NCBI GenBank assembly: GCA_018670085.1
Contig: JABHRS010000029.1
Location: forward strand, 1 to 64,000
Direction of reading: 5' to 3'
Length of the DNA stretch: 64,000 nt
From: an archaeon
GTDB taxonomy: Archaea > Nanobdellota > Nanobdellia > Woesearchaeales > GW2011-AR9
Positions 47,069 through 47,358 of the stretch are shown piece by piece. The notes below the pieces were generated by a model. It did not search any database and was not told where the DNA came from. It saw only the letters and a program-made list of their open reading frames with translations. Numbering within the stretch: the stretch's first letter is position 1; each line of letters starts with the position of its first letter. The translations under genes and the position numbers were made by a program.

Positions 47069-47202
47069 TGTATTCTATACAAACATAGTCAAACAAGAAA
47101 TCCACTCGTCTTCTTTGCAGCACTCAAAAATCTTAATTTGTGGTTTAATTACTTTTTTGAAGCGCTATATTTAAAAAAGAATTCTGAGCTGTAGTTATAT
47201 GT

Positions 47203-47358
47203 GGGCTAGTAGCTTAACCTGGTGGAGCGCTCGGCTTATATGCCACATATGGAGATCTGTAAAAGAATTCCATGTGCTGAAGATTCCGTGTGGTTGGGGG
47301 TTCAAAAGATCCTTGGTCAGCAATGATTCAAAGAATCATGGAAGTCCCCCCTAGCCCA
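47203..47358 (+). tRNA. tRNA-Ile (probable anticodon UAU) with two introns (anticodon loop about 47241-47284; T-loop, about 38 nt within 47301-47345)
   Basis: Acceptor GGGCTAG/CTAGCCC+A; D-arm GCTT/GAGC; anticodon stem CTCGG/CCGTG; T-stem GGGGG/CCCCC. Removing 44 nt and 38 nt leaves a standard 74-nt tRNA. Confidence 0.75.

Follow-up and report, generated by a model that had tools for sequence, protein, structure and literature searches.

How does an archaeon read the isoleucine codon AUA when the usual machinery for it appears to be missing? This question is raised by a gene at positions 47203-47358 (+) of the window, by which we mean the whole 64,000-nucleotide stretch of DNA analysed. Most archaea read AUA, but not AUG, through TiaS, which acts by way of agmatidine, together with tRNA-Ile2(CAU). 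AUA accounts for 16% of the Ile codons in window ORFs of at least 150 amino acids, so that it must be read in this host, whose genome is available as 37 contigs (1.48 Mb, 94% complete). The gene consists of three exons and two introns, a structure confirmed to base level (Table 1). Very probably it encodes an AUA-reading tRNA-Ile(UAU) with two bulge-helix-bulge (BHB) introns, replacing tRNA-Ile2(CAU) and TiaS, with an alternative exon-intron arm in the precursor that may aid folding or the modification of U34/U36.

Table 1. Coordinates of the tRNA-Ile(UAU) gene parts and of the upstream element, given as window positions.
Feature	Position	Strand	Remarks
TATA-like sequence tatatttaaaaaa, putative promoter	47166..47178	+	about 30 bases upstream of the tRNA; seen in the sequence
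Exon 1	47203..47240	+	acceptor 5' strand, D-arm, anticodon stem 5' strand, loop bases 32-37
Anticodon TAT (UAU), bases 34-36	47237..47239	+	ARAGORN on the spliced sequence; kept in congener L077
Intron 1 at 37/38, 44 nt	47241..47284	+	GCC at bases 2-4 is complementary to the exon's GGC at 30-32; GAAG in the 3' part pairs with loop bases 32-34
Exon 2	47285..47306	+	base 38, anticodon stem 3' strand, variable loop, T-stem 5' strand, T54-A59
Intron 2 at 59/60 (T-loop), 38 nt	47307..47344	+	hairpin ATGATTC-AAA-GAATCAT inside; TGGAAG is the 3' end
Exon 3	47345..47358	+	base 60, T-stem 3' strand, acceptor 3' strand, discriminator A73; CCA not encoded

The sequence-only reading had proposed a tRNA-Ile with a UAU anticodon and two introns, one of them in the T-loop, and this was borne out, the spliced sequence being called by ARAGORN as a tRNA-Ile (74 nt, anticodon TAT) and 2000 mononucleotide shuffles of it yielding no tRNA at all. 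The removals it had specified (44 nt following A37; 38 nt within the T-loop, here located at 59/60) are exact to the base and leave the complete 74-nt cloverleaf, and the hairpins it had named in the inserts, CACAT..ATGTG and the one listed in Table 1, are present. Unspliced, the gene was called neither by ARAGORN nor by Rfam RF00005 at the gathering score. The ends of intron 1 can be shifted by a single base, the T being either that of 47241 or that of 47285, which leaves the mature tRNA unchanged. Intron 2 was placed at 59/60 because TTCA (T54-A57) and the intron's TGGA pair there as in a BHB. Against the gene reading stands one mismatch of the anticodon stem, U28.U42; it is common to the congener L077 and to another genus of the family.

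Comparison with other genomes points in the same direction. The congener L077 (G202; contig JABHSG010000001.1) has nearly identical exons, but its intron 1 (47 nt) differs in sequence and intron 2 is absent; between the two genes, acceptor pairs 5-68 (C-G against U-A) and 6-67 (U-G against A-U) are changed with pairing kept. Introns of 20 and 30 nt (L054, in G063) and of 34 and 40 nt (L053, in G120) occupy the same sites as in the window gene. Such a pattern, of conserved exons and of introns that differ in length and sequence and are sometimes absent, is what would be expected of true introns. A pattern for the 5' half of the gene matched in 84 of the 149 genomes of the order, some of the matches being clearly non-tRNA, and a similar pattern found at least 118 loci across GTDB r220. 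Among the matches listed, the titles are almost all from DPANN archaea (Woesearchaeota, Nanoarchaeota, Pacearchaeota, Micrarchaeota, Diapherotrites and Aenigmatarchaeota), with a few labelled otherwise (Euryarchaeota, Marsarchaeota or only 'archaeon').

Altogether, 158 distinct complete tRNA-Ile(UAU) genes were parsed, with a 37/38 intron in 149 (the other nine lacking intron 1), a 59/60 intron in 41 and discriminator A73 in all of them; in the first batch, 112/112 became tRNA-Ile(TAT) for ARAGORN once spliced. The sequence-only view of UAU tRNA-Ile as an exception of a few archaea thus turns out to be too narrow, this being the usual arrangement of the lineage and one found throughout DPANN. 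Its remark that T-loop introns are rare needs qualification, as site 59/60 had already been described (PMC4090602) and is occupied in about a quarter of these genes, the 3' end of the intron often being TGAAAG. When run unspliced with introns enabled, ARAGORN named many of the tRNA-Ile(UAU) genes (loci L061-L178) Ser(UGA), Thr or Ala, because the intron was misplaced. Automatic tRNA annotation of DPANN genomes could be wrong at these genes, and such miscalls may explain why tRNA-Ile(UAU) has been under-reported.

Both introns fit the standard bulge-helix-bulge layout, in which 3-nt bulges flank a central helix of 4 bp, at described archaeal sites, which comprise 37/38 and non-canonical positions such as 53/54 and 59/60 (PMC4090602); the window gene shares with these known introns both the positions and the pairing. 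At 37/38, intron bases -3 to -6 are pairable with loop bases 32-35 in 100%, 97%, 93% and 75% of the 149 genes, C32 being pairable with intron base -3 in every one. The central helix of intron 1 in the window gene has three of four pairs, a relaxed form that counts against it, and that of intron 2 has all four. Among 47 introns at 59/60 (41 from tRNA-Ile(UAU) and six from elongator tRNA-Met), T54-A57 pair with intron bases -6 to -3 at 4/4 positions in 35 and at 3/4 in 12, a mean of 3.74 pairs against 1.66 in shuffled introns (maximum 2.09). The host genome contains a splicing endonuclease of the EndA type (L179, 269 aa, PF01974 and PF02778), the only PF01974 gene found in it, with a sequence closest to the Nanoarchaeum equitans enzyme (chain 3iey_A, E 4.8e-36), and the latter is reported to cut non-canonical BHB sites (reference list of PMC4090602). 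The endonuclease would remove intron 1 at 37/38 with loop bases 32-35 paired to the 3' end of the intron, and intron 2 at 59/60 with T54-A57 paired to TGRA at the corresponding end.

A further pairing involves the opposite end of intron 1. In 122 of 149 genes, bases 2-4 of the intron complement bases 32, 31 and 30 of the exon, compared to an average of 8.9 and at most 19 when the introns were shuffled; among elongator tRNA-Met introns, only 4/34 show it. These served as the control, other introns called by ARAGORN being unfit since many 'Ser(UGA)' calls are the UAU genes themselves. For each of the pairs at 31, 30 and 29 the observed value lies above that of all 5000 permutations; these ignore relatedness, so that some of the covariation counts are inherited. 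In the window gene the GGC at 30-32 pairs with the GCC at 47242-47244 around a loop of UUAUAU, and when the anticodon region is folded by itself, this alternative arm is part of the minimum-energy structure. The arm excludes the BHB pairing of base 32, and the precursor would then switch between two forms. It is missing in many Micrarchaeota UAU genes, which together with the nine genes devoid of intron 1 indicates that neither arm nor intron is essential everywhere. A second alternative hairpin, between the 3' end of the intron and exon 2, was rejected because its covariation was not consistent.

Whether the UAU gene really stands in for the common archaeal system was addressed with the profile PF08489 (TiaS_FLD), to which four archaeal controls were positive every time. 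Absence of tiaS had been proposed as a check by the sequence-only reading, and none was found in the host genome with this profile, nor in any of 382 sampled genomes of the phylum or 37 named DPANN genomes (Micrarchaeota and Diapherotrites included). Within the order, a single genome out of 149 gave a match (G128, 73% complete), likely by contamination; this lone gene (L030, G128:C73:535-876) sits on a 12-kb contig. The tRNA-CAU genes of the order carry Met-type acceptors (e.g., GCCG or GGCG) and resemble elongator Met, not Ile2, and the UAU genes mostly begin with GGGC or GAGC. One CAU tRNA was found in the host genome (L025) and read as initiator tRNA-Met, with no other detected by Rfam tRNA at a permissive E-value and only one match, apparently by chance, to two CAU patterns. 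That TiaS and tRNA-Ile2(CAU) are present but were missed in the draft, the UAU gene being an accessory or decaying copy, could be argued from the U28.U42 mismatch and from the 94% completeness of a genome in which the searches that failed to find tRNA-Ile2(CAU) missed elongator tRNA-Met as well. Such an explanation is nevertheless very improbable given the lack of PF08489 matches in the 382 phylum genomes and in the 37 named DPANN genomes, the Met-type acceptors of the CAU matches in relatives, and the acceptor changes with respect to L077, which keep pairing and speak against decay. We favour the reading that the gene provides a DPANN archaeon of the Woesearchaeota type (Nanobdellati in the NCBI taxonomy) with its AUA-reading tRNA-Ile(UAU), which would be charged with Ile, read AUA directly through U34 once mature, and take the place of tRNA-Ile2(CAU) and TiaS, which the whole lineage appears to lack.

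The same reading has the first bases of intron 1 paired, before splicing, with anticodon-stem bases 29-32, so that UUAUAU would be displayed in a hairpin loop, and this arm may help folding, or the modification of U34 or U36, with the result that AUG (Met) would not be misread. Many of the sequences compared are related, and covariation with -7 and -8 is also seen for intron bases 2 and 3; there is hence a real, if lesser, chance that the complementarity to bases 29-32 does not reflect a functional hairpin but arises from common descent together with the inner helix of the BHB, in which intron bases 2-3 face -7/-8. Such a helix has no need of intron base 4, yet this base covaries with exon base 30 (C30 occurs with G4 in 12/12 cases), and compensated combinations are also seen as G31-C3 (3/3), A31-U3, C31-G3, A29-U5 and C29-G5, while the elongator Met introns of the same lineage lack the complementarity. 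A yeast-like role, in which Psi34 and Psi36 would be introduced by a Pus1-type enzyme only while the intron is still in the precursor, is suggested by the same tRNA with the same anticodon, by the intron in 149/158 genes and by the yeast precedent for intron-dependent modification (PMC4090602). It appears improbable in that form, as some UAU genes have no intron and PF01416 (PseudoU_synth_1, the TruA/Pus1 family) was found in 0/61 genomes of the order, the host genome included, against 12/14 control genomes. As this family was not found, it should be considered that modification involves another enzyme or an RNA guide, or does not occur. Intron-assisted modification as in yeast is still plausible, and we advance tentatively, as a rather unlikely extension of the favoured reading, that the DPANN intron is a functional part of AUA decoding, providing a temporary anticodon arm on which an enzyme that is neither TiaS nor Pus1 would modify U34/U36 ahead of splicing. 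If true, this would be an independent archaeal solution for telling AUA from AUG.

Several known systems can be set beside the window gene. The TiaS/agmatidine tRNA-Ile2(CAU) system does the same job, reading AUA but not AUG, but its enzyme was not found in this lineage, where the anticodon UAU is already in the gene. Yeast tRNA-Ile(UAU), whose intron is needed for the formation of Psi34/Psi36 by Pus1 (PMC4090602), shares the intron-bearing precursor and the problem of AUA versus AUG, and differs in the enzyme, for which no TruA/Pus1-family gene was found here. Closest are the tRNA-Ile3(UAU) genes of Nanoarchaeum equitans and Korarchaeum cryptofilum (PMC8450103, PMC6000648), which are reported to take the place of tRNA-Ile2(CAU) and which, like the window gene, encode UAU in the gene itself; the Korarchaeum gene was reported with one intron, compared to two in ours. 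In a published survey covering 167 genomes of archaea, only two had tRNA-Ile(UAU), and it was suggested that this tRNA had not arisen in their common ancestor (PMC6000648). Against this two-exception view, the window gene is one of a DPANN-wide set, with the 5' end of intron 1 pairable to the anticodon stem. Archaeal tRNA-Ile(UAU) and 59/60 introns were therefore already known, while we came across no mention, in the papers searched, of the DPANN-wide replacement, of the frequency of T-loop introns or of the covarying exon-intron arm; our literature search, which was incomplete, found no publication on DPANN tRNA introns or DPANN AUA decoding with such a pattern. It appears that, over a very large portion of the diversity of archaea, tRNA-Ile(UAU) is what normally reads AUA, and that it escaped notice because its introns make ordinary tools miss or misname the gene. 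This raises the question of how a UAU anticodon avoids misreading AUG without either agmatidine (TiaS) or Pus1/TruA.

Some observations concern other tRNAs. Rfam RF00005 gave 25 tRNAs above its cut-off in the host genome, with Phe, Tyr, Glu, Gln and elongator Met not among them, perhaps because introns hide these five from the model. The initiator tRNA-Met of this genome (L025 1501-1606; G000:C32:8601-8706) has an apparent T-arm intron of about 31 nt near 53/54. Elongator tRNA-Met introns of the order (L180-L208 and L210-L222) have in common a conserved TGAGYGATGAGNC...GNCGATGA element that is similar to box C / kink-turn motifs. Given that N. equitans encodes a C/D box sRNA inside its elongator tRNA-Met intron (PMC3491384), this element may be a lineage-wide guide RNA nested in the intron.
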